A stretch of 64,000 nt of DNA from Sulfurovum sp. FS08-3 (GTDB taxonomy: Bacteria > Campylobacterota > Campylobacteria > Campylobacterales > Sulfurovaceae), in the NCBI GenBank assembly GCA_000830175.1, contig JQIS01000001.1, forward strand, positions 221,482-285,481, given 5' to 3'. Position numbers and translations under genes: made by a program. Below, piece by piece: positions 323 through 48,997 of this stretch (its first letter is position 1; the number at the start of each line of letters is the position of its first letter). Under the pieces are notes generated by a model, which saw only the letters and a program-made list of their open reading frames with translations, ran no database searches and had not been told where the DNA came from.

Positions 323-1135
323 TTGCACTACTTAAACGAATTTAAACTATTTATACTCCATCTCTTTGCCAATCAAAGGCTTATCATGACGCTTATCAAA
401 AACGAATTTAAAAAGAGCTATTTGGGTTCTTATTTGGGGTTGTTTTGGGCGTTTGTGCAACCTCTTGTCTTTATGTTGGTGATTTGGTTTGTCTTTGAAG
501 TGGGATTTCGCACAGGTCCCGTTACGGGTGATACCCCCTTTGTGTTGTGGCTAATAGCGGGGATGATACCGTGGTTTTTTCTCTCTAGTGGACTCTCAAG
601 TGGCACCAATGCTGTCGTATCCAACGCCTTTTTGGTCAAAAAAGTAGCCTTTCGTACGAGTATTTTACCGCTTGTTCAGATTGGTTCGGAGATGATTATT
701 CATTTGGTTTTGGTGGGATTGTTGCTTGGGGTCTTTTTGCTTTATGGCTACATGCCTACTCTCTATTGGTTGCAACTTTTGTATTATATTTTTTGCACCA
801 TTGTATTGCTTTTGGGCTTGACGTGGCTTACTTCGGCTATTCGAGTCTTTGTTAAAGATATTGGCAATTTTATTACCGTAGTGATACAAATAGGCTTTTG
901 GGCAACCCCTATCTTTTGGTCGCTTGAGTTGGTACCTCAAGAGTATCGCTACATTTTTGAACTCAATCCTGCTTTTTATATCGTAGAGGGTTTTAGAGAT
1001 AGTTTAATAGCTCAGGTTTGGTTTTGGGAGAAGGGGTATCTAACACCCTATTTTTTGATGATGGCTTCATTTACTTTTGTGGTAGGAGCGGTAGTGTTTC
1101 GTAAACTTCGTGTGCATTTTGGGGATGTACTGTAG
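323..1135 (+). CDS. ABC-2 type polysaccharide export permease (Wzm/TagG/KpsM-like)
   Basis: This is a 270-residue integral inner-membrane protein with about six hydrophobic segments and an N-terminal amphipathic region (KNEFKKSYLGSYLGLFW), typical of ABC-2 permeases that export O-antigen or capsule. The C-terminal signature around LNPAFYIVEGFRDSL also fits. The TTG start is chosen because an AAGGAG lies 5 bases upstream; an internal ATG at residue 22 is the alternative. Its cognate ATP-binding subunit (Wzt/KpsT), normally the adjacent gene, is absent here. A 20-codon Wzt-like N-terminal remnant exists near 45185. The stop abuts the kdsD start with no spacer, so the two are probably translationally coupled. 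Confidence 0.85.
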   Translation: MHYLNEFKLFILHLFANQRLIMTLIKNEFKKSYLGSYLGLFWAFVQPLVFMLVIWFVFEVGFRTGPVTGDTPFVLWLIAGMIPWFFLSSGLSSGTNAVVSNAFLVKKVAFRTSILPLVQIGSEMIIHLVLVGLLLGVFLLYGYMPTLYWLQLLYYIFCTIVLLLGLTWLTSAIRVFVKDIGNFITVVIQIGFWATPIFWSLELVPQEYRYIFELNPAFYIVEGFRDSLIAQVWFWEKGYLTPYFLMMASFTFVVGAVVFRKLRVHFGDVL

Positions 1136-2135: not shown

Positions 2136-3752
2136 ATGAACAATAAGAGACAGACTTGTATTTTGGTTTTAGGAATGCATCGAAGCGGCACTTCGGCTTT
2201 GACGGGAGTGTTGAGTTTGCTGGATGTTTATTTGGGAAGTGAACTTATGGAGGCAAACTTTGCTAACGAAAAAGGCTACTTTGAAAACAATATACTCTAT
2301 AAAATAAATGAAAAACTATTAGGACAAATTAACAGTTCATGGAATGATACCTTTTATGATGAAGAGAAGCTTGAAAATATTAGTGGGTTAAATGAACTCA
2401 AAGTTGCTTTGAAATCGGAATTTAAATACGCTCATACGTTTGCCATCAAAGATCCACGACTTGCCTATCTATTCCCTATCTATAAAAAAGTACTTAAACA
2501 ACTAAAAATAGATATAAAAATTATTCTTCCCTATCGAAATCCCTTGGAGGTAGCTAGTTCTTTGAAAAAACGAGACGCTATGTCGCTTGAAAAAGGGATG
2601 CTTTTGTGGGCGTATCACTTTTTGATGGCAGAGAAGTTTAGCAGAGGACACGCTAGAGTTTTTGTAAATTTTGACGAACTTATAGCCAATACTTCGGATG
2701 TTATTGATACTATTTCTTCAAAATTAACCCTAGAACTCGCAGATAAATTTAACAAAAACAAAACCCAAATAGAGGCTTTTTTGGAGCCTAGTTTAAAACA
2801 TCACAATGTATCTATCGAAAATCTATCGCACAATACTCCAACCATTGTCAAAGAGACATTGGCACTAAAAGATAGGTTTAATATCGACGATCTTGATAGG
2901 GAGTTTGATATTTTAAGAGAAGGGCTATTTAGCTACCAAAAGCTCTTTTATAATTTTGACATTGTAAACGCTTTGCATGAAGGCGAAGTGGCTAAACAAA
3001 GTTTGCATATCAAAATTCAAGAACTCAACCAAACAACACACAATTTGCATCTCAAAGAGCAAGAATTAACTCAAACGCAACACAATTTACAAATCAAAAT
3101 TCAAGAACTCAACCAAACAACACAAAACCTACACCTCAAAGAGCAAGAGCTTAACCAAACTGTACAAAACTTACAAGCCAAAGAGCAAGAATTAACTCAA
3201 ACGCAACACAATTTGCATCTCAAAGAGCAAGAGCTTAACCAAACTGTACAAAATTTACAAGTCAAAGAGCAAGAACTCAACCAAACAACACACAATTTGC
3301 ATCTCAAAGAGCAAGAACTTAACCAAACTGTACAAAATTTACAAGTCAAAGAGCAAGAACTCAACCAAACAACACACAATTTGCATCTCAAAGAGCAAGA
3401 ACTCAACCAAACAACACAAAACTTACACCTCAAAGAACAAGAGCTTAACCAAACAACACAAAACTTACAAGCCAAAGAGCAAGAACTCAACCAAACAACA
3501 CAAAACTTACAAGCCAAAGAGCAAGAGTTAAGAGAAAAAAGTAGTGAACGTTTAATTTTAAATGATGCATTGAAATCAAAAGATCAAGAGCTTAGCCAAA
3601 CCAAACACAAATTGCAAACCAAAGAGCAAGAGTTTGTTCAATCTCAACAAGAGTTGGACAATGTAAAAACAGAATTAACAAGTTTGTATATGAGCAAAAG
3701 TTGGAAAATTACAAGACCCTTAAGAAGAGTGATGAGGATAGTTAAAAAATGA
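2136..3752 (+). CDS. sulfotransferase-like protein with tandem-repeat coiled-coil tail
   Basis: The 538-residue protein has three parts. Residues 1 to about 270 resemble a sulfotransferase/P-loop kinase fold: GMHRSGTSALTGVLSLL near residue 11 is the PAPS-binding loop, followed by GYFEN and the FAIKDPRLAYLFP segment typical of bacterial sulfotransferases. Residues 291-458 are twelve perfect 14-residue repeats (consensus HLKEQELNQTTQNL), with diverged copies to about 510, predicted as a long coiled coil. The end, SKSWKITRPLRR, is a short motif often seen at the end of glycan-locus proteins. It probably sulfates a surface glycan in the cytoplasm or acts as a length-setting scaffold; the target is unknown. 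No signal peptide is visible. Its stop overlaps the next start (ATGA). Confidence 0.75.
   Translation: MNNKRQTCILVLGMHRSGTSALTGVLSLLDVYLGSELMEANFANEKGYFENNILYKINEKLLGQINSSWNDTFYDEEKLENISGLNELKVALKSEFKYAHTFAIKDPRLAYLFPIYKKVLKQLKIDIKIILPYRNPLEVASSLKKRDAMSLEKGMLLWAYHFLMAEKFSRGHARVFVNFDELIANTSDVIDTISSKLTLELADKFNKNKTQIEAFLEPSLKHHNVSIENLSHNTPTIVKETLALKDRFNIDDLDREFDILREGLFSYQKLFYNFDIVNALHEGEVAKQSLHIKIQELNQTTHNLHLKEQELTQTQHNLQIKIQELNQTTQNLHLKEQELNQTVQNLQAKEQELTQTQHNLHLKEQELNQTVQNLQVKEQELNQTTHNLHLKEQELNQTVQNLQVKEQELNQTTHNLHLKEQELNQTTQNLHLKEQELNQTTQNLQAKEQELNQTTQNLQAKEQELREKSSERLILNDALKSKDQELSQTKHKLQTKEQEFVQSQQELDNVKTELTSLYMSKSWKITRPLRRVMRIVKK
3006..3509 (+). repeat. 42-bp tandem repeat, 12 units, in frame
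   Basis: Twelve consecutive 42-base units encode 14-residue repeats. Units alternate in pairs, beginning HLKEQEL or QxKEQEL, and differ by a few bases, so they arose by repeated unit duplication. Each unit is a multiple of three, so slippage would change coiled-coil length without shifting the frame. Ten of the twelve units encode ELNQT; units 2 and 5 encode ELTQT. Confidence 0.95.
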
Positions 3753-10834: not shown

Positions 10835-12301
10835 TTGCTCTTCAATAGCTACGAATTTATATTCCTATTCTTGCCCATCACCTTTTTTGTCTATTTCTAT
10901 CTCAACTCCAAAAGACTCACTGAGGCGAGTAAGGGGTTTTTGGTAGCTTCGTCGCTCTTTTTTTACAGTTGGTGGAATGTTATTTATCTTCCGTTGATAC
11001 TCGCTTCGATGCTCTTTAACTACCTTTTGGGAGCTTCCCTTACCAAAGAGTCGCAACATAAAAAAGTCTCCAAAAAACAGCTCCTAAGTATGGGAATTGT
11101 TGCCAATGTTGCACTGCTAGGCTATTTTAAATACTCTGATTTTTTTATCGACAACCTCAACAAAGCTTTGGGTAGTGATATGGCTTTGCTTCATCTTGCT
11201 CTTCCTCTTGCTATTAGTTTCTTTACTTTTCAACAAATTGCCTATTTGGTTGATAGCTTTCGTGGGGAGACCAAAGAGGATGATTTTTTAAACTATGCGT
11301 TGTTTGTCACCTTTTTCCCTCAACTTATAGCTGGTCCCATCGTCCATCACAAAGAGGTAATGCCTCAATTTGCCTCATCGTGGAACAAAGTCAAAAACTA
11401 CCGTAATATTGCATTGGGACTCTTTATCTTCTCTATTGGACTCTTCAAAAAAGTTGTCATTGCTGATACCTTTGCGGTGTGGGCTACGCAAGGATTTGAT
11501 GTGGCTACAGCTTTAACTTTTTTTGAAGCGTGGGCTACGTCGCTCTCTTATACCTTTCAGCTCTATTTTGATTTTAGCGGATACACCGATATGGCGATAG
11601 GGGCCGCGCTGCTTTTTAATATCAAATTGCCTATCAACTTTGATTCTCCCTACAAAGCAACCGATATTCAAGACTTTTGGCGACGATGGCACATTACACT
11701 TTCACGATTTTTAAAAGATTATATCTACATTCCACTGGGCGGAAACAGAGCAGGAAGCTTTAGAACCTACACCAATCTTATGGCTACGTTTATATTGGGT
11801 GGATTGTGGCACGGGGCAGGATGGACGTTTGTCTTTTGGGGATTTTTGCATGGATTGGCTCTAGTCATTCACCGCATTTGGCACTCTTTGGGCTTTAGAC
11901 TTTGGACTTGGTTAGCATGGTTTATCACTTTTAACTTTGTCAATATCTCATGGGTTTTCTTTCGAGCCAAAGAGTGGGAGGATGCGGTGAAAGTTTTGAG
12001 GGGGATGGGGGGATTGAGCGGAGTAGTTGTAGCCGAAAAATATGAAAAATATCTATCAAAGCTCTCGGAGTATGGAGTGGAATTTGGAATAGTAACGACC
12101 AATATACAAAGCGGTTCGCAGATTATTGGATGGCTTGTTTTTGCGTTGGTTGTTTCGTTGGCACTCAAGAACTCCTATAAATTTACGTTTGAAAAAAAGT
12201 TACATCCCCTTATCATTGTCTTTGCATCCTTTATTTTTGCTTATGCAATGATTGGTTCTTTGGTTAGCAGTAGTGAAGTTTTTTTGTATTTTAATTTTTA
12301 G
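10835..12301 (+). CDS. MBOAT family O-acyltransferase (AlgI-like)
   Basis: This is a 488-residue polytopic membrane protein of the AlgI/DltB class, which carries acetyl groups across the inner membrane for O-acetylation of a surface polysaccharide. The TTG start gives the canonical AlgI N-terminus LFNSYEFIFLFLP, with GAGG upstream. Family motifs are clear: FPQLIAGPIVHH, FDFSGYTDMAIG, DFWRRWHITLSRFLKDYIY and the catalytic His in GGLWHGAGW. The next gene is an AlgJ/AlgX-like SGNH protein, the usual partner. The glycan may be the product of the upstream glycosyltransferases. Confidence 0.92.
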   Translation: MLFNSYEFIFLFLPITFFVYFYLNSKRLTEASKGFLVASSLFFYSWWNVIYLPLILASMLFNYLLGASLTKESQHKKVSKKQLLSMGIVANVALLGYFKYSDFFIDNLNKALGSDMALLHLALPLAISFFTFQQIAYLVDSFRGETKEDDFLNYALFVTFFPQLIAGPIVHHKEVMPQFASSWNKVKNYRNIALGLFIFSIGLFKKVVIADTFAVWATQGFDVATALTFFEAWATSLSYTFQLYFDFSGYTDMAIGAALLFNIKLPINFDSPYKATDIQDFWRRWHITLSRFLKDYIYIPLGGNRAGSFRTYTNLMATFILGGLWHGAGWTFVFWGFLHGLALVIHRIWHSLGFRLWTWLAWFITFNFVNISWVFFRAKEWEDAVKVLRGMGGLSGVVVAEKYEKYLSKLSEYGVEFGIVTTNIQSGSQIIGWLVFALVVSLALKNSYKFTFEKKLHPLIIVFASFIFAYAMIGSLVSSSEVFLYFNF

Positions 12302-40724: not shown

Positions 40725-41270
40725 ATGGGGGCGATAGAGTATTACAGTTACGATGATTATGCACAGTGGAGAGGCGATTGGGAGCTAATTTACGGCTATC
40801 CTGTAGCTATGTCGCCCTCTCCTGTCATTACGCATCAAATGGTAGCGACACAGATAGTCATTGAGCTTAGCGATGCACTAGAGGAGTGCAAAGAGTGCAT
40901 GGTTTTGATGGAGCAAGATTGGAAGATTAGCGATGAAACCGTGGTGCGTCCCGATGTAGTAGTAATATGCAATGAGCCTCACGAGGAGTATATCACCAAA
41001 ACGCCCAAAATTGTAGTAGAGGTAGTCTCCAAAAGCTCTGCCAAACGGGATGAAACCACCAAATTTGAACTCTACGAAAAAGAAAAAGTACCCTATTACA
41101 TCATCGTCTATCCCCACGACCTCAAAGCCAAAATATATAAACTAGAGGATAAAAAATACTCCAAAGTAGCCGACTTTAGCGATGAGGTTGCCTATTTGGA
41201 TGAGCCAAACGAGTGCAAAACCCAGATTGATTTCGAGCGTGTTTTTAGAAGGTTGCGTAAAAAGGTTTAA
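40725..41270 (+). CDS. Uma2 family (DUF820) endonuclease-like protein, copy 1
   Basis: The 181-residue protein of the Uma2 family has a PD-(D/E)XK-type fold. Motifs: YDDYAQWRGDWELIYGYPVAM, HQMVATQIVIELSDAL, VVRPDVVVICNEPHEEY (acidic site), KIVVEVVSKSSAKRDETTKF (E-x-V plus Lys region). The true role of Uma2 proteins is not settled; they are frequent in mobile and multicopy contexts. A paralogue is at 44106. AAGGAG precedes the ATG. A small gene follows 4 bases later. Confidence 0.8.
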   Translation: MGAIEYYSYDDYAQWRGDWELIYGYPVAMSPSPVITHQMVATQIVIELSDALEECKECMVLMEQDWKISDETVVRPDVVVICNEPHEEYITKTPKIVVEVVSKSSAKRDETTKFELYEKEKVPYYIIVYPHDLKAKIYKLEDKKYSKVADFSDEVAYLDEPNECKTQIDFERVFRRLRKKV

Positions 41271-42534: not shown

Positions 42535-42561
42535 TAACTCAATTTAAACAAAAAGGATACA

Positions 42562-43929
42562 ATGATGAAAAAAATCATTACTTCAGCTGCAGTAGCAGTA
42601 GCTTTAACAACAGGTGCATTTGCAGGTGCTATTGCACTCAACGATCCAGCTGGTAAAATCACATTCAACAAAAATTTTATCTCTGCAGATACAAATGTCT
42701 CTAATTATGTAGCTGGTGTTGATATTAACTATACAACAGATGCTAAAATCGTAAAAGATAGTTCAGTTGTTTTCACGCTTAGTAATGGTGGTGCATTTAT
42801 GGGAACAGCCAACAAATGGACACTCGAAAGCAATGTAACTGGAAAAGTAGCAACAGGTCTATCGCTAAGCGATACCTCAAAGCTTGTTATGCAAGTTGAT
42901 TCAGCAGGTGATATGAATGCATCTCATGGTTTTCAATTGAAGTATAATGGTTCTACTGCTGCAATGAATATGATCAAGATTAAAAACGGTGCAACTGATG
43001 ATATTACTTTAAGCGTAGAAGCTACAACTGTTGCTGGTGGTGACAAAGTAGCAGTGGATGGTGCAAAAGTGGACAAACACCTTGTTATTGATTCATTGGA
43101 CAATGTATTCCCAACAGACACATTAACCTGTACTACAAAAACAGTAAACAGTGACGATAGAACAGTATTTAATGCAGGTACTGGAAATACAAAACAAGCT
43201 ACATGTACCTACGTCATTGCAGCTACGCCAACTATGGGTGATATTGACTACAATACATCTGACCTTAACTTGACACTCTCAGTAGATGGTATTGACTACG
43301 CTGAAGGTAACGTTACTATTACTGGAGGTAACCTTGCAGCTGAAACAGTTAATGGTGATACTATTATTGCAAAAGTTGCTAACGATGAAGTAAATGCTAC
43401 ATACAATCTTGTATTTGACCTTGACCTCACAACGGGTACACCACTTTTGGGTTCAAAAACACTTACTTTGACATCAGTAGTTGATTACAATACAGATACT
43501 GCTCTTGCTTCTAATAAAGTAACAAAACAAACAACACTAAAAAACAATGTTGATTCTATTAATTGGGAACTTACTACTTACAGTGCTGACCTTTTACAAA
43601 TTGGACACAACACAGCGACTGGTAAAAACACATTCATTACAATAGACAACAACGGCGATACTGCAACCAAAGCCTCTTTGATTGTATATCCAAAAGATGG
43701 AAGTGCTGCTATTACTTTGGCTGATTTTGTAGACGTACCTGCTAATGGTTCAGTTACTGTGAATGCTGCCACTATCTCTGCTGCAGCTAGCAATCAAAAC
43801 AACTTTAAGTTAAATGTTAGTATGCCAATTGATGCTAAAAAAGGTGATGTCATTGCATTCCAAGCTTTGAATAATGGTAAAACAATTATTAAAACTGTAG
43901 ATAACAACGACGACAACAACGGTAACTAA
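42562..43929 (+). CDS. secreted surface-layer-like protein with eight N-glycosylation sequons
   Basis: The 455-residue exported protein has a Sec signal peptide (cleavage probably after AFA, residue 21) and a beta-rich mature part high in Thr, Asn, Asp, Ala and Val, with only two Cys (190 and 215), probably one disulfide. It ends in an acidic tail (DNNDDNNGN). Eight sites fit the bacterial PglB sequon D/E-x-N-x-S/T: Asn 45, 56, 91, 119, 231, 236, 250 and 278. The codon pattern differs from its neighbours (regular GCA/GCT, GTA, ACA choices), which suits a highly expressed gene. AAAAGGATAC precedes the ATG. No family was recognised; S-layer or surface-coat protein is the best guess. Confidence 0.75.
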   Translation: MMKKIITSAAVAVALTTGAFAGAIALNDPAGKITFNKNFISADTNVSNYVAGVDINYTTDAKIVKDSSVVFTLSNGGAFMGTANKWTLESNVTGKVATGLSLSDTSKLVMQVDSAGDMNASHGFQLKYNGSTAAMNMIKIKNGATDDITLSVEATTVAGGDKVAVDGAKVDKHLVIDSLDNVFPTDTLTCTTKTVNSDDRTVFNAGTGNTKQATCTYVIAATPTMGDIDYNTSDLNLTLSVDGIDYAEGNVTITGGNLAAETVNGDTIIAKVANDEVNATYNLVFDLDLTTGTPLLGSKTLTLTSVVDYNTDTALASNKVTKQTTLKNNVDSINWELTTYSADLLQIGHNTATGKNTFITIDNNGDTATKASLIVYPKDGSAAITLADFVDVPANGSVTVNAATISAAASNQNNFKLNVSMPIDAKKGDVIAFQALNNGKTIIKTVDNNDDNNGN

Positions 43930-44034: not shown

Positions 44035-44069
44035 GATTACTTCGTCGCTTTGCTCCTCGCGTAATGACG
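44035..44069. repeat. dispersed palindromic element, copy 2
   Basis: This reads GATTACTTCGTCGCTTTG and then CTCCTCGCGTAATGAC, the inverse of the CGTCATTGCGAGGAGCGAAG-type dispersed repeat seen in many bacterial genomes. It is related to copies at 40695-40714 and 58897-58960 and lies just upstream of the second Uma2 gene. A TATAAT at 44080-44085 follows. Confidence 0.5.
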
Positions 44070-44105
44070 GGATTTGTGGTATAATATTCCAAAAAGGAGC
44101 AACCC

Positions 44106-44651
44106 ATGTCCCATCTCGAACTTTTGCCACGATACACCTACGATGATTATTGCTTATGGGAAGGAGAGTGGGAACTCATAGAGGGTATGCCCGTATCCAT
44201 GGCACCCGCTCCCATGAAAGTGCATCAACGCATCGCAAGTGAGCTTTTTTTTGCACTTAAACAACAATTAGATGAAGAGTGCGAATGCGAATTGCTCTAT
44301 GAAACCGACTGGAAACGCTCCAACGATACCGTTTTGCGTCCTGATATTGTTTGGGTGTGTGGAGATGAGAGCGAAAAATACCTTACCAAAGCTCCCAAAA
44401 TCATTATCGAAATAGTAAGCCCCTCCAGTATCCAAAAAGATGAAACGCTCAAATTTGCTATCTATGAAGAAGAAAAAGTCACCTACTATATCCTTGTCTA
44501 TCCCGATGATTTGGTAGCAAAGGTTTATACCATCAAAGAGGATAAATATACTAAAGTAGGCGATTTTTCCAAAGAGAAGTTGCATTTTGAAACTATTGAG
44601 TGCGATTTAACACTCGATTTTGATACCGTATTCAAAAAATTTCGCCGTTAG
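44106..44651 (+). CDS. Uma2 family (DUF820) endonuclease-like protein, copy 2
   Basis: This 181-residue paralogue of the gene at 40725 shares YTYDDYCLWEGEWELIEGMP, VLRPDIVWVCGDESEKY, KIIIEIVSPSSIQKDETLKF and the ending VFKKFRR. All the acidic and Lys positions of the Uma2 core are kept, so it appears intact. AAAAAGGAG precedes the ATG. Downstream are decayed nuclease-like genes. Function unknown. Confidence 0.8.
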   Translation: MSHLELLPRYTYDDYCLWEGEWELIEGMPVSMAPAPMKVHQRIASELFFALKQQLDEECECELLYETDWKRSNDTVLRPDIVWVCGDESEKYLTKAPKIIIEIVSPSSIQKDETLKFAIYEEEKVTYYILVYPDDLVAKVYTIKEDKYTKVGDFSKEKLHFETIECDLTLDFDTVFKKFRR

Positions 44652-44659
44652 ATTCTTTA

Positions 44660-45050
44660 GTGGCTTCATTGGCTATCGCACGAGCAAAAACTGATGATAA
44701 TTTCGGAGAGTTCAGCAAAAAGCTTGATAAGCTAGAGAAATTTGTAAATAATCTTTTCAATAAAGAAGATGATACCTTTTGGGAAGAATTGGATAGGTGT
44801 TCACCAACCCAAAATGAAGTAGCCGAGGAGTTTTTTACAACTCTCTTAGGGCTAACCCTGCTTTGGCTGAAATATCCTACGACTTTACAGACAAAAATGT
44901 AACCCGTGCAAAAAATCGCATAGCCACTACAACCACCACCTAGCTTTGGCTAGTTTTTATATTAGCGACGATGTCAAAAACGAAGCCCTTCAAAATAATA
45001 TAATGGTGTTGCAACGCAAAGGGGATATTGTAGAGACGATAATGTCTTAA
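44660..45050 (+). pseudogene. decayed PD-(D/E)XK-like nuclease gene, copy A
   Basis: The first frame from GTG 44660 encodes a coiled N-terminus (FGEFSKKLDKLEKFVNNLF) and SPTQNEVAEEFF. The reading frame then breaks: the continuation NSLRANPALAEISYDFTDKN is in another frame, and a third frame gives HHLALASFYISDDVKNEAL and VLQRKGDIVETIMS to the stop at 45048. The catalytic middle (E-x-K) is deleted. The C-terminal text matches fragment C below. Two frameshifts and a deletion make this a dead gene. Confidence 0.7.
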
Positions 45051-45184
45051 AAGGGGAAGTGAGATTTTAAGCTCACCTATTTATGAAGCCAAAGCACCGC
45101 TTTCAATCAAAAAATATGGATTGCTTCTATAGAGTCTTTAGCTCAAATAGGATATAATTTAGTGACTTTAACAAAGAGAGATAG

Positions 45185-45248
45185 ATGCCAAACGTCATAG
45201 TGATACAAAACCTAACTAAAAAATATAAACTCTATTCCCAGCCCATAA
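45185..45248 (+). pseudogene. N-terminal remnant of a Wzt/KpsT-type exporter ATPase
   Basis: ATG at 45185 opens MPNVIVIQNLTKKYKLYSQP, which closely fits the start of polysaccharide-export ABC ATPases (a first beta strand followed by LTKKYKLYxxP). Homology ends after about 20 codons, before Walker A, and the frame reaches a stop at 45287. A TATAAT (45153-45158) and an AAAGAGAG site remain upstream, so the old promoter seems preserved. The intact permease at 323 lacks its ATPase neighbour. Confidence 0.55.
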
Positions 45249-45455
45249 TACAAAGCCCACTCGCAAGATGTAGAAAAACTCATCAATAAAAAATATAAAA
45301 ACTTTCAAATACTCTATCCTGAATACAGCGATTATAACCACCATCTAGGCATAGCCTCATTTTACATCAACGACGATACCAAAGAGATGGCACTTGATAA
45401 TAATGTAATGGTCTTACAACGCAAAGGCGATGTGATAGAGACGAGTTTGCCTTAG
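45249..45455 (+). pseudogene. decayed PD-(D/E)XK-like nuclease gene, C-terminal fragment C
   Basis: An open frame of 68 codons without a start encodes YKAHSQDVEKLINKKYKNF, then NHHLGIASFYINDDTKEMAL and VLQRKGDVIETSLP, and stops. This is the C-terminal half of the same family as copy A and begins just after the expected E-x-K catalytic Lys. It is fused directly behind the Wzt-like remnant, which points to a deletion that joined two genes. Confidence 0.65.
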
Positions 45456-45471
45456 GGTACGACATTATCTC

Positions 45472-46248
45472 CTACGACTCTTTCAAAAAACTCAACAACT
45501 CTTGTGTGATCATTCCATTGGTCGCTATCAGTACTTTCTCGCCGATACGATAGGGTTTGTTGATGGAGAGAACCTCGCCTTTGGCTTCAAGCAAAATCAA
45601 AATCCCTGCACCCACATCCCACGGTTTGAGATCCATCTCATAATAGCCATCAAACTTTCCTTGAGCTACATAGCATAAATCCAACGCCGCTGCCCCCAAA
45701 CGGCGAATATCTCGAATGTGGGGAAGCAAATTTGCCATCGTATCCATCACCCAATGATACTCCATGCCTCGCTCCACCTTCGCATAAGGAAAGCCCGTAG
45801 CAATAAGCGATTGTTGCAGATTGCTTTGGGTCGAAACGCTTAGCCTTGTGCCGTTGAGATAAGCTCCCTCTCCACGCACCGCCCAAAAGAGTTCATTTAA
45901 AATAGGATTGTAAACCACTCCCATGGTCGGTTCATTCTCTTCCCAAATGCCCATAGAGAGGGCTACATGGGGGATACCGTGGACAAAATTGGTCGTGCCA
46001 TCAATGGGGTCGATGTAAATCGTTTTAGGATAAATATACTCTCCGCTATGGCTCTCTTCGGCTACCAAAGTATAATCGCCAAAGTGTTGCGAAAGCTCTT
46101 GCAAAACAAACTTCTCCACCGCTACATCGTACTGCGTCACCAAATCCACCGTGCCTTTGAAATGCAACTCCTTGGAGGCATAAAAGCCCTCTTCTATCAT
46201 TTTTCCCGCTCTCAAAGCGATGGTTTTTAAAATCTCTATTTTTTGCAT
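45472..46248 (-). CDS. suhB: inositol monophosphatase family protein (SuhB-like)
   Basis: This 258-residue Mg-dependent sugar phosphatase has the metal sites LVAEESHSG and YIDPIDGTTNFVHG and the C-terminal KPWDVGAGILILLEAKG. It may hydrolyse inositol phosphate or related substrates; SuhB members also act in rRNA antitermination. Its ATG follows the DksA-like gene stop directly, so it is coupled to the accessory genes upstream. Confidence 0.88.
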   Translation of the reverse strand: MQKIEILKTIALRAGKMIEEGFYASKELHFKGTVDLVTQYDVAVEKFVLQELSQHFGDYTLVAEESHSGEYIYPKTIYIDPIDGTTNFVHGIPHVALSMGIWEENEPTMGVVYNPILNELFWAVRGEGAYLNGTRLSVSTQSNLQQSLIATGFPYAKVERGMEYHWVMDTMANLLPHIRDIRRLGAAALDLCYVAQGKFDGYYEMDLKPWDVGAGILILLEAKGEVLSINKPYRIGEKVLIATNGMITQELLSFLKES

Positions 46249-46599
46249 CTATTTTCCCTTTTGAAATTGAGTTGCACACGCAATACATCGAACCGACTCA
46301 GGACGTATCATAAGCCGTCCTATGGCAATATCCTCTTCACAATCAATACAGATACCAAAATCCTCTCTATCGACTCGATGCATCGCACTCTCTAGGCGTT
46401 TAAGCTTCAAGCGTGACTCATCAAGTATCCTATCATTGACCGCTTTTTCATTCATCGCCTCTACCCGTGTGAGTCGCCCCAGCGAACAATCGGGAGCTAT
46501 GGGTTGCGTTATTGCCTCTAGTGCTTTGATTTGCTTGTGAAGATGAGCAATCTCTTCGATGATTTTGGTTTTGATTTGGGTTCGTTCTTGGGGTGTCAT
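46249..46599 (-). CDS. DksA/TraR-type zinc-finger protein
   Basis: The 116-residue protein has a coiled-coil N-terminal half and the C4 zinc finger ICIDCEEDIAIGRLMIRPESVRCIACATQF. The coiled coil lacks an obvious DxxDxA tip, so full DksA activity on RNA polymerase is uncertain. Its start overlaps the nucleotidyltransferase stop (ATGA). SuhB follows with no gap. Confidence 0.82.
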   Translation of the reverse strand: MTPQERTQIKTKIIEEIAHLHKQIKALEAITQPIAPDCSLGRLTRVEAMNEKAVNDRILDESRLKLKRLESAMHRVDREDFGICIDCEEDIAIGRLMIRPESVRCIACATQFQKGK

Positions 46600-46880
46600 A
46601 GTTTCATTCCATTACAAAGAGCCTCTTGTTCGATGGCTCTGTTTTTATTGTAACTTAATACCACATCAATTTTTTGCTCACCGATGCGATTTTTGAGGGC
46701 TACTAAAAAGTCTATCTTTTTGGATACTTTGTTCTCTACGGGTGTATCGATGTAGAGGTCAATATCGCCACCTCTTTGGCTATCATCTACTCTACTACCA
46801 AAAAGATAGATAGAGCCTTCATCAAAGATAGAAGCAAAGCTCTCTTTAATCGCCTCTATCTCATACTCTTTTAGACGCAT
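46596..46880 (-). CDS. MNT-type nucleotidyltransferase (antitoxin-like)
   Basis: This 94-residue minimal nucleotidyltransferase has GSRVDDSQRGGDIDLYID, the GS..DxD catalytic pattern of MntA-type proteins that AMPylate and silence HEPN toxins. It overlaps the HEPN-like gene by 20 bases and the DksA-like gene by 4 bases. Confidence 0.82.
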   Translation of the reverse strand: MRLKEYEIEAIKESFASIFDEGSIYLFGSRVDDSQRGGDIDLYIDTPVENKVSKKIDFLVALKNRIGEQKIDVVLSYNKNRAIEQEALCNGMKL

Positions 46881-47307
46881 CTTTGACCTTTGTATAAATA
46901 TCTTTGAGTACTCTATAGCTCTCTAAAACCAATCCGATGTTCTCTACCCTCTCCTCTATCTCAAAAGGATACTCATAGGCTAAGAGATTACGCACTTCTC
47001 GAAGCTTCTCCCAATCATCTTTGTTTACAATATCAAGCTTTTCCAATCGATTGAGTACATCAATCATAGGCAAGGTTATACTATCAATCTCTTTAAGTTC
47101 GTAGAGAAGTTGTTTCAAGAGCTTTGCTCCAATCTTATCTTGTAGTTTAGAAAAATTAAACAAAAAACTATTAACGATTCGAGTATTGTTATAATCATCA
47201 AAAAAGGTTGTATCAATAAATTTGTCCTTCAAATCATTATAATCCATATCGCAACTGCTTATCATCTGCTCACAAATCAAAAAGAGTTTGTTTAGTGTTT
47301 GGCTCAT
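46861..47307 (-). CDS. HEPN-like protein, probable MNT partner
   Basis: This all-helical protein of about 148 residues (start ATG 47307, with GGAG upstream; an ATG 27 bases earlier inside the AAA gene is less likely) ends with LREVRNLLAYEYPFE. In HepT toxins this site is R-x4-H-x-Y; here Tyr replaces the His (RNLLAYEY). The ribonuclease may therefore be inactive or altered. Pairing with the MNT gene supports the assignment. Confidence 0.6.
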   Translation of the reverse strand: MSQTLNKLFLICEQMISSCDMDYNDLKDKFIDTTFFDDYNNTRIVNSFLFNFSKLQDKIGAKLLKQLLYELKEIDSITLPMIDVLNRLEKLDIVNKDDWEKLREVRNLLAYEYPFEIEERVENIGLVLESYRVLKDIYTKVKDASKRV

Positions 47308-47308
47308 C

Positions 47309-48997
47309 TTACTCTTCTCCTTGAAATATCTCACAATGCACCAACTCCCACGAGCGATAGATGAGTACTACCTTTAGAAACTCTTTTTGTTTGAGGTTGG
47401 GTATTTGGGTGATGTCGTATCGTGCCAACTGGGCTTTGGCTTCTTGGATTTTTTGTTCGAGTAGCTCTTGGGTAAAGTGCGATTTGGAGATATATTTGAG
47501 TTCTATTACTCCACCATAAACAATCTCATCACGAATGGGATTGAGGAGTATATCGACATACCCTTTGGTCACTTCAGCTTCGCTTTTGACTTCGTAGTAG
47601 GGATTAAGCGAGAGATAGGCAATCAAAAATCCTTTCATAAAGGCTTCGCCCTCAATGTAGTCTCGAATGCTTGATTGGGCTTTGACTTGTTCGTTGAGGT
47701 ACTCAAAGAGTTTCAAATCACCATCAAGGGCAAAATGGGCAAGGTGTTCATTGAAGCGTTGGAGTTGGAGATTAAAATCAATATCTCTATAGGCATTTTC
47801 AATAAAATCGGCGACTATCTTTTTAATCGTTTGATTGGGGATTTTAAGATTGATACTCAAAAAACGCTTCTCAATCGTCACAAACCCCAAAGCAAACAAA
47901 AAGGAGGAGAAATTGGTCGTTTGCAACATCTCAAAGGCAGAGAAGTTATCTTTGAGTTCGGAGATGGTTACTTGTTCATCCCTGAGTAAACGACTAAGCA
48001 GTTCAAAATTACCGTTAAGCTTTTGGTTGGTATAGACGAGATATTTGAGTTTGGAGTAGTCGGTTCGTACATTGACATCAATGAGTTGGTCGGGTTCTTG
48101 TTGGCTACTTATAAGATGATAGATATAGTAGAGTATCATATCGCTATTGTAGAGAGTATGAGGTGTATCTTGATGAAACCTGTAGCTATCGTACCATGCA
48201 TCGCAACGTGTAACAATAAGCTCTTTTTTATCTTCGAGATTGTAGTGGCAAATAAGTTGATGCAGCTCCTCTTTGGTAACTCCCGTAAAGTCATTAAACT
48301 TTCGATTGATTGAGATATTTGAACCTATATTGCTTCCGCTGGTGACATCATAGAGTGCCAAAGGCGAAACACCCGTAAAAAACATCTTGCGAATAGCACT
48401 GTTGTTGGAACTCGTACCCACTTTGAGCATAGTAAAAAACTGCTTGTAGAGAGCCTCTTTGGTAGTGACTACATCTTTGTAATTACTCATATCACTTACA
48501 AGCAATTTATTGACAAAGTTATCGTACTCATCGATAAAGATGTAGATAGGGAGAGAGTGTTTGGAAGAGTAGTCGAAAAGAGTTTCTAATCTATCAATGG
48601 GTTCTTGAGTCTTAAAGCTTATATCAATATCGTAACGCTCTACAAAGTCATCGACTCGTAAGTTGAGATGGTGTTTAAAACTCTCATTGTAGCGTGTAAT
48701 ATCCACCGCCGAAAAGTCAAACTTCATGATATAGTAGCTGTGTTTGCGTTTGGTAGGATGGGCGTAGATGTAGGTATCCCCAAAGAGCCTTTGAAACTTC
48801 TCTTTGTAGTTTACATCGTAATAGGCGATAAGCATATTGACCAATAGACTTTTACCAAATCGCCGTGGACGCAAAAAAAACAAAAAATCGGGCGCTTCCT
48901 CCAAAGTAGGAATATGGTGCGTTTTATCGATGTAGTAATACTCTTCTGTTTTTATGCGTTCATAGTCGCTAAGTCCGTAGGGTAGTCGCTTTTTCAT
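47309..48997 (-). CDS. AAA-ATPase-like protein with C-terminal PD-(D/E)XK nuclease domain
   Basis: The 562-residue protein begins LPYGLSDYERIKTEEYYYID and has Walker A RPRRFGKSLL (about residues 43-52) and Walker B YIFIDEYDNF. This is the PF09820 type, fused to a PF08011-like C-terminal nuclease domain (GYVDILLNP, GGVIELKYIS, the D..ExK site). These proteins are abundant and often multicopy; function is unproven, perhaps defence or mobile-element related. It is the first gene of the leftward run ending in suhB. Confidence 0.82.
   Translation of the reverse strand: MKKRLPYGLSDYERIKTEEYYYIDKTHHIPTLEEAPDFLFFLRPRRFGKSLLVNMLIAYYDVNYKEKFQRLFGDTYIYAHPTKRKHSYYIMKFDFSAVDITRYNESFKHHLNLRVDDFVERYDIDISFKTQEPIDRLETLFDYSSKHSLPIYIFIDEYDNFVNKLLVSDMSNYKDVVTTKEALYKQFFTMLKVGTSSNNSAIRKMFFTGVSPLALYDVTSGSNIGSNISINRKFNDFTGVTKEELHQLICHYNLEDKKELIVTRCDAWYDSYRFHQDTPHTLYNSDMILYYIYHLISSQQEPDQLIDVNVRTDYSKLKYLVYTNQKLNGNFELLSRLLRDEQVTISELKDNFSAFEMLQTTNFSSFLFALGFVTIEKRFLSINLKIPNQTIKKIVADFIENAYRDIDFNLQLQRFNEHLAHFALDGDLKLFEYLNEQVKAQSSIRDYIEGEAFMKGFLIAYLSLNPYYEVKSEAEVTKGYVDILLNPIRDEIVYGGVIELKYISKSHFTQELLEQKIQEAKAQLARYDITQIPNLKQKEFLKVVLIYRSWELVHCEIFQGEE

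Follow-up and report, generated by a model that had tools for sequence, protein, structure and literature searches.

Why should a single exported protein of a Campylobacterota bacterium carry eight D/E-x-N-x-S/T sites, the extended sequon of bacterial PglB, and carry all of them in the first 280 of its 455 residues? The question is raised by the gene at 42562..43929 (+ strand, as for all of its features listed below) in the 64,000-nucleotide stretch of Sulfurovum sp. FS08-3 DNA that was analyzed here and is referred to as the window. A sequence-only reading had proposed the product as a heavily glycosylated surface coat. The gene, which we call slr4-like for reasons given below, encodes a 455-aa secreted protein, putatively a coat protein of the S-layer type and predicted to be N-glycosylated. 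Its ATG start is preceded by AAAAGGATACA, with a good ribosome-binding site (AAGGA, 42553..42557, read directly from the sequence), and the N-terminus shows by inspection a Sec signal peptide, MMKKIITSAAVAVALTTGAFA followed by G (residues 1-21, ending in AFA; 42562..42624), of the same kind as in the homologues and predicted to direct export to the periplasm. The chain is composed of 10% Asn, 9% Asp, and 14% Thr, with D+E amounting to 10%. Its codon choice, described earlier as regular, ranks at the 98th percentile of adaptation to ribosomal-type genes, i.e. at the level of ribosomal and ATP-synthase genes, a value that is partly driven by the amino-acid composition; judged from codon usage, the protein appears to be highly expressed. 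Promoter or terminator signals around the gene did not rise above those in shuffled sequences.

All eight sites were found at the residues given for them, namely DTNVS (Asn45, 42688..42702), DINYT (Asn56, 42721..42735), ESNVT (Asn91, 42826..42840), DMNAS (Asn119, 42910..42924), DYNTS (Asn231, 43246..43260), DLNLT (Asn236, 43261..43275), EGNVT (Asn250, 43303..43317), and EVNAT (Asn278, 43387..43401). Their density is above chance: residue shuffles of the mature protein contained 0.99 extended sequons on average, and 0 of 20,000 reached eight (maximum 7). The excess lies at position -2, since plain N-x-S/T occurs at chance level in the mature protein (11 versus 9.2 expected, P = 0.31), with D/E at -2 in 8 of the 11; an acidic residue at this position is the mark of bacterial PglB. 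No extended sequon follows residue 280, in agreement with the bare C-terminal part noticed before, which includes a sequon-free domain starting at an invariant Trp (residues 335-455, 43564..43926).

Homologues are rare. Six were found among several hundred Campylobacterota searched, at 16-35% identity: G001 and G002, of the same genus and found first, and then, by profiles, G004, G003, G430, and G291. We term the window protein, G001, and G002 type A, and the other four type B. In a scan of genome contigs, the sole match was the record of the G002 homologue itself, and searches of viral contigs and plasmids gave no matches. The type-B proteins match the Pfam family Slr4 (PF19526) at 64-221 bits (G291 6e-65 over the whole model, G004 2e-20, G003 4e-19, and G430 2e-17), and Slr4 of Pseudoalteromonas tunicata forms a square S-layer, as established by TEM and knockout (PMC7821379). 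The window protein, G001, and G002 do not reach the cut-off of this Pfam family, and the window protein is therefore described as a divergent Slr4 relative. A comparison of the type-A with the Slr4-type profile gave 96% probability (E 2.8e-9) for residues 325-437, and whole-length type-A profiles recover the type-B proteins; the link of the window protein to Slr4 is thus transitive and strongest over ~110 C-terminal residues. Within the same part, residues 347-419 only, the window protein came close to the cut-off of DUF5719 (PF18986; 25.6 versus 26.2 bits), which none of the other members matched. Several candidates were discarded: L013, matching by its signal peptide alone and by eye a TRAP-type solute-binding protein; L057 and L058, cytoplasmic-type proteins with weak Slr4 scores; and L056, which covers only ~60 positions of the Slr4 model. 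Structures predicted from 4 and from 7 sequences were not confident (mean pLDDT 46). Compared with PDB folds, the model had nothing similar at E <= 0.001, and the family profile had no significant match among PDB sequences. In the fold comparison, the Anabaena sensory rhodopsin transducer came up repeatedly (prob 1.00, E values from about 0.008) as weakly resembling part of the model; sugar binding has been predicted for its beta-sandwich fold (PMC2739507), and the match, coming from a low-confidence model, is taken as a lead only.

The genomic surroundings of the family are in line with a secreted surface protein. In G291 and G430, slr4 lies directly downstream of a full T2SS operon (ATPase, F, pseudopilins, K, L- and M-like proteins, secretin), the same arrangement as for slr4 of P. 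tunicata (PMC7821379), and is followed by the gene for a small exported protein and by Wzm and/or Wzt polysaccharide exporter genes. In the window, no T2SS operon is present directly upstream of the slr4-like gene, which stands apart after murB, and no gene for a small exported protein lies 3' of it. A T2SS-like secretin set is located 25 kb away on the same contig (L067:6680-10792; G000:C59:290680-294792). Its secretin matches the slr4-linked orthologue at 1.7e-102 and comes with three upstream genes, L- and M-like ones included, in the same order, the set being 20-32% identical to its counterparts in G291 and G430. The window itself begins with a polysaccharide exporter cluster including a sulfotransferase-like protein and an MBOAT acyltransferase (10835..12301, +), a similar gene to the latter being linked to slr4 in G002; at its edge lies a Wzm-type ABC-2 exporter permease (323..1135, +), and Wzm or Wzt is found near slr4 in four relatives.

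Some further observations concern these loci. The small exported protein (113-133 aa) is encoded directly 3' of slr4 in all type-B loci (L052:2748-3134, L042:994-1395, L012:1412-1753) and is possibly an S-layer partner or anchor. CysQ/CysC/CysN/CysD-like sulfate-activation genes, recognized by eye at about 211406-216783 of G000:C59 (L025), and the sulfotransferase-like gene at 2136-3752 of the window both lie near Wzm, and the surface polysaccharide may be sulfated; in G291, a CysQ-like gene is located 5' of the slr4-linked T2SS operon. Two related Uma2-like genes (by eye; 40725-41270 and 44106-44651) flank murB and the slr4-like gene. At 46596-47334, a nucleotidyltransferase (MNT)/HEPN-like pair (by eye) is probably a toxin-antitoxin module; in Cognaticolwellia mytili, too, a HEPN/MNT pair has been reported within the slr4 locus (PMC11094555).

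Taking these lines together with the sequons, we consider it likely that the product of the slr4-like gene is a surface-coat (S-layer) subunit of the Slr4 type, divergent in sequence and N-glycosylated by PglB. The coat assignment of the earlier reading has gained independent support from Slr4 homology and from the T2SS linkage in relatives, while the lattice and the occupancy by glycans are predicted. One may also envisage an abundant PglB-glycosylated beta-protein, secreted or periplasmic, that is not part of an S-layer, e.g. an adhesin, a biofilm-matrix protein, or a minor surface protein, with the likeness to Slr4 limited to a shared beta-sandwich domain. This would be in line with the transitive and mostly C-terminal homology (residues 325-437, where the weak DUF5719 match is also located), with the lack of T2SS linkage in the window genome and of support from structure prediction, and with the finding that Slr4 itself is also a component of the biofilm matrix (PMC7821379). 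We nevertheless judge it unlikely, as whole-length type-A profiles recover type-B proteins that match nearly the full Slr4 model, and as size class, signal peptide, sequon layout, and genomic partners are all alike, along with codon usage at the ribosomal level.

An N-glycosylated coat presupposes the enzyme, and a genome lacking pglB had been named beforehand as an argument against glycosylation. The gene is present (L001 1453-3615, 721 aa, 5e-153 to Campylobacter lari PglB). The match to the C. lari enzyme (5ogl) is full-length, the WWDYG motif is present, and E315/R327 correspond to C. lari E319/R331. Adjoining it is a PglF-like dehydratase (1e-129 to C. jejuni WlaL structures), and in a second locus, a homologue of PglC, matching the diNAcBac-1-phosphate transferase at 1e-79, is grouped with a PglD-like acetyltransferase and a PglE-like aminotransferase. 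Of the pgl cluster that was to be looked for, the PglC/D/E/F-like enzymes are hence encoded, although scattered over at least two loci; in Helicobacter pullorum, pgl genes are likewise scattered and pglB is doubled (PMC6025236). By homology, this gene set suggests a diNAcBac-type reducing sugar. The genome encodes two STT3 proteins, the second of which (PglB2-like, L009:10462-12474, G000:C1) has WWDYG as well, carries Phe at the R331 position, and adjoins exported Asn/Thr-rich proteins. Because of the Phe, it is less likely than the first to be the enzyme behind the -2 rule, and its own sequon rule may differ; R331 has been proposed for -2 recognition, yet is not the sole determinant (PMC4894442). 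Studies on the PglBs of Sulfurovum and Nitratiruptor, relatives from vents, are cited in PMC6025236. In the draft genome of G430, no pglB was found, while two genus-mates have one; an assembly gap is the probable reason, and a true absence, which would contradict the glycosylation of its sequons, is the less likely one.

Traces of such a system are seen well beyond this protein. In a genome sample of ~0.5 Mb (431 ORFs), sorted into crude classes by signal peptide and hydrophobicity, exported proteins contain 88 extended sequons versus 17 reversed motifs and ~20 in shuffles, as compared with 104 versus 62 reversed and 79 shuffled in cytoplasmic proteins, where 10 stem from one tandem-repeat protein. 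With outliers removed, D/E occupies position -2 of N-x-S/T in 31% of cases in exported versus 14% in cytoplasmic proteins of the sample (P = 3e-7), and among all offsets from -6 to +6, D/E is raised at -2 alone and in exported proteins only. A general N-glycosylation system thus looks active, and we regard this as strong sequence evidence that it shapes the exported proteome of Sulfurovum sp. FS08-3. The slr4-like protein is not the extreme of the genome, as a predicted lipoprotein of 1142 aa (L017:4035-7463, +; G000:C59 about 44035-47463) contains 24 extended sequons, of which 13 form a single (E/D)TN array; going by this count, it may be the genome's most densely glycosylated protein. That sequon counts alone can mislead is illustrated by window gene 2136-3752, whose sequons were rejected as an artefact. 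Its product is of the cytoplasmic type, with a sulfotransferase-like N-terminus (by eye; a similar N-terminus follows Wzt in G291) and then 14-residue tandem repeats (LKEQELNQT...), whose ELNQT element accounts for the 10 sequons.

The second test proposed beforehand was the conservation of the sequons in orthologues relative to other positions. Extended sequons number 8 in G001, 7 in G002, 6 in G004, 4 in the partial G003, 7 in G430, and 10 in G291, and the seven family proteins contain 50 of them versus 6 reversed motifs. Aligned shared sequon pairs amount to 47, versus 7.7 expected if sequons were dealt randomly among Asn residues, and most other positions are not conserved. Asn250 is one of only six invariant columns in the whole seven-protein alignment and lies within D/E-x-N-x-S/T in 7 of 7 members. 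Sequons near Asn45, Asn91, and Asn278 recur in most members, some displaced by a few residues: that of Asn45 is found at its place or within a few residues in every homologue covering it, that of Asn91 is aligned in G002, shifted by <=3 columns in G004 and G430 and by a few residues more in G001, and that of Asn278 is present at or beside its place in 5 out of 6 aligned sequences. Among the remaining sites, Asn236 is kept in 3 of 3 type-A proteins, Asn231 is common to the window protein and G002, Asn119 is confined to the window protein, and the place of Asn56 is not conserved. Moreover, D/E at -2 is found in 50 of 66 N-x-S/T sites before the conserved Trp335 and in 0 of 20 after it (seven proteins; Fisher P = 4e-10), which makes the bareness of the C-terminal part a rule of the family.

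These data also bear on the notion that the D-x-N-x-S/T motifs are structural, serving as Ca2+-binding or beta-turn elements of an unglycosylated protein rich in Asp, Asn, and Thr. Many S-layer proteins bind Ca2+. The composition given above would suit such a role, G430 keeps its 7 sequons in a draft genome in which no pglB was found, and the conserved N-x-S/T context could partly reflect structure, e.g. Ca2+-binding D-x-N loops. We rate this explanation as very improbable in view of the disparity between the reversed and the true motif (6 versus 50; ~1 in shuffles), of the use of both E and D at -2 and of both S and T at +2, and of an enrichment that is genome-wide, restricted to exported proteins, and peaks exactly at -2. 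In addition, several sites are displaced by a few residues or move between homologues while full-length members keep a total of 6-10, a pattern more readily expected of glycan decoration than of fixed ion ligands. Chance or a low-complexity artefact, by which the cytoplasmic-type product of 2136-3752 indeed obtains its sequons from the repeat alone, has a negligible probability for the eight sites, as these are non-repetitive, mutually different, and kept in place across the seven proteins despite their low identity, so that the conservation test refutes it.

If the slr4-like protein is an N-glycosylated Slr4-type coat subunit, its path may be pictured as follows. The protein would be exported by the Sec pathway through its N-terminal signal peptide, whereupon periplasmic PglB would move a lipid-linked glycan onto the Asn of D/E-x-N-x-S/T along the first two thirds of the protein; the enzyme and the sites are both encoded, and their occupancy is predicted. 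A dedicated type II-like secretion system would then carry the protein across the outer membrane, as suggested by the gene order in two relatives and by the secretin/L/M set of the genome itself. On the outer membrane, the abundant coat would assemble, possibly anchored to the Wzm/Wzt-exported polysaccharide by the sequon-free C-terminal beta-domain. The glycans would sit on the N-terminal two thirds, Asn250 being the one universal site, and the C-terminal domain would stay bare because it provides a contact or anchoring surface. A bolder version, which we put forward as a long shot, is a Campylobacterota S-layer in which N-glycosylation of the Slr4-type subunit is obligatory: PglB glycans would be needed for lattice assembly, the universal one at Asn250 as a structural element, and the bare C-terminal beta-domain, the low-confidence model of which is similar to the predicted sugar-binding fold of the Anabaena transducer, would bind surface polysaccharide or the glycan of a neighboring subunit. 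In Bacteria, such an S-layer would parallel the N-glycosylated S-layers of Archaea while being made of unrelated parts.

Slr4 and PglB are each already known; no Slr4-type coat proteins with conserved PglB sequons in Campylobacterota were found in the literature searched. The Slr4 family is 98% gammaproteobacterial, and the paper describing Slr4 makes no mention of glycosylation (PMC7821379). With an Slr4-type coat of 6-10 conserved sequons, PglB would become an enzyme of coat building in these Campylobacterota, and the range of Slr4 would reach past marine Gammaproteobacteria. The same coat family with and without PglB would offer a natural comparison for the role of N-glycans in an S-layer, and the conserved sequons together with the bare C-terminal domain lead to specific, testable predictions.

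Among known systems, Slr4 of P. tunicata (EAR28894) resembles the window protein in profile homology, Sec signal peptide, beta-rich composition, and likely high expression. The window protein differs in falling outside the Pfam model, in being shorter (about 434 aa when mature, below the ~57 kDa reported for Slr4), in lacking adjacent T2SS genes, and in its abundance of PglB sequons. SapA of Campylobacter fetus forms a surface layer in the same phylum, but has no signal peptide and leaves the cell by type I secretion. With C. jejuni-type N-glycosylation, the system shares D/E-x-N-x-S/T sites in exported proteins as well as PglB, PglC, and PglD/E/F-like enzymes. It departs from it in placing eight sites on one predicted major surface-coat protein, where the >60 C. 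jejuni PglB substrates are diverse extracytoplasmic proteins (PMC6025236), and in having a second STT3 without an equivalent of R331. In the literature searched, bacterial S-layer glycans are characterized as typically O-linked (PMC2943079), and N-glycosylated S-layers have been reported from Archaea. The archaeal S-layer glycoproteins modified by AglB (Haloferax, Sulfolobus) are similar to the proposed coat in the way they work, with many N-x-S/T sites on the S-layer subunit and an enzyme of the STT3 family, and unlike it in that the window protein follows the acidic -2 rule of bacterial PglB and is a subunit of the Slr4 kind; the resemblance is one of working and does not imply homology.
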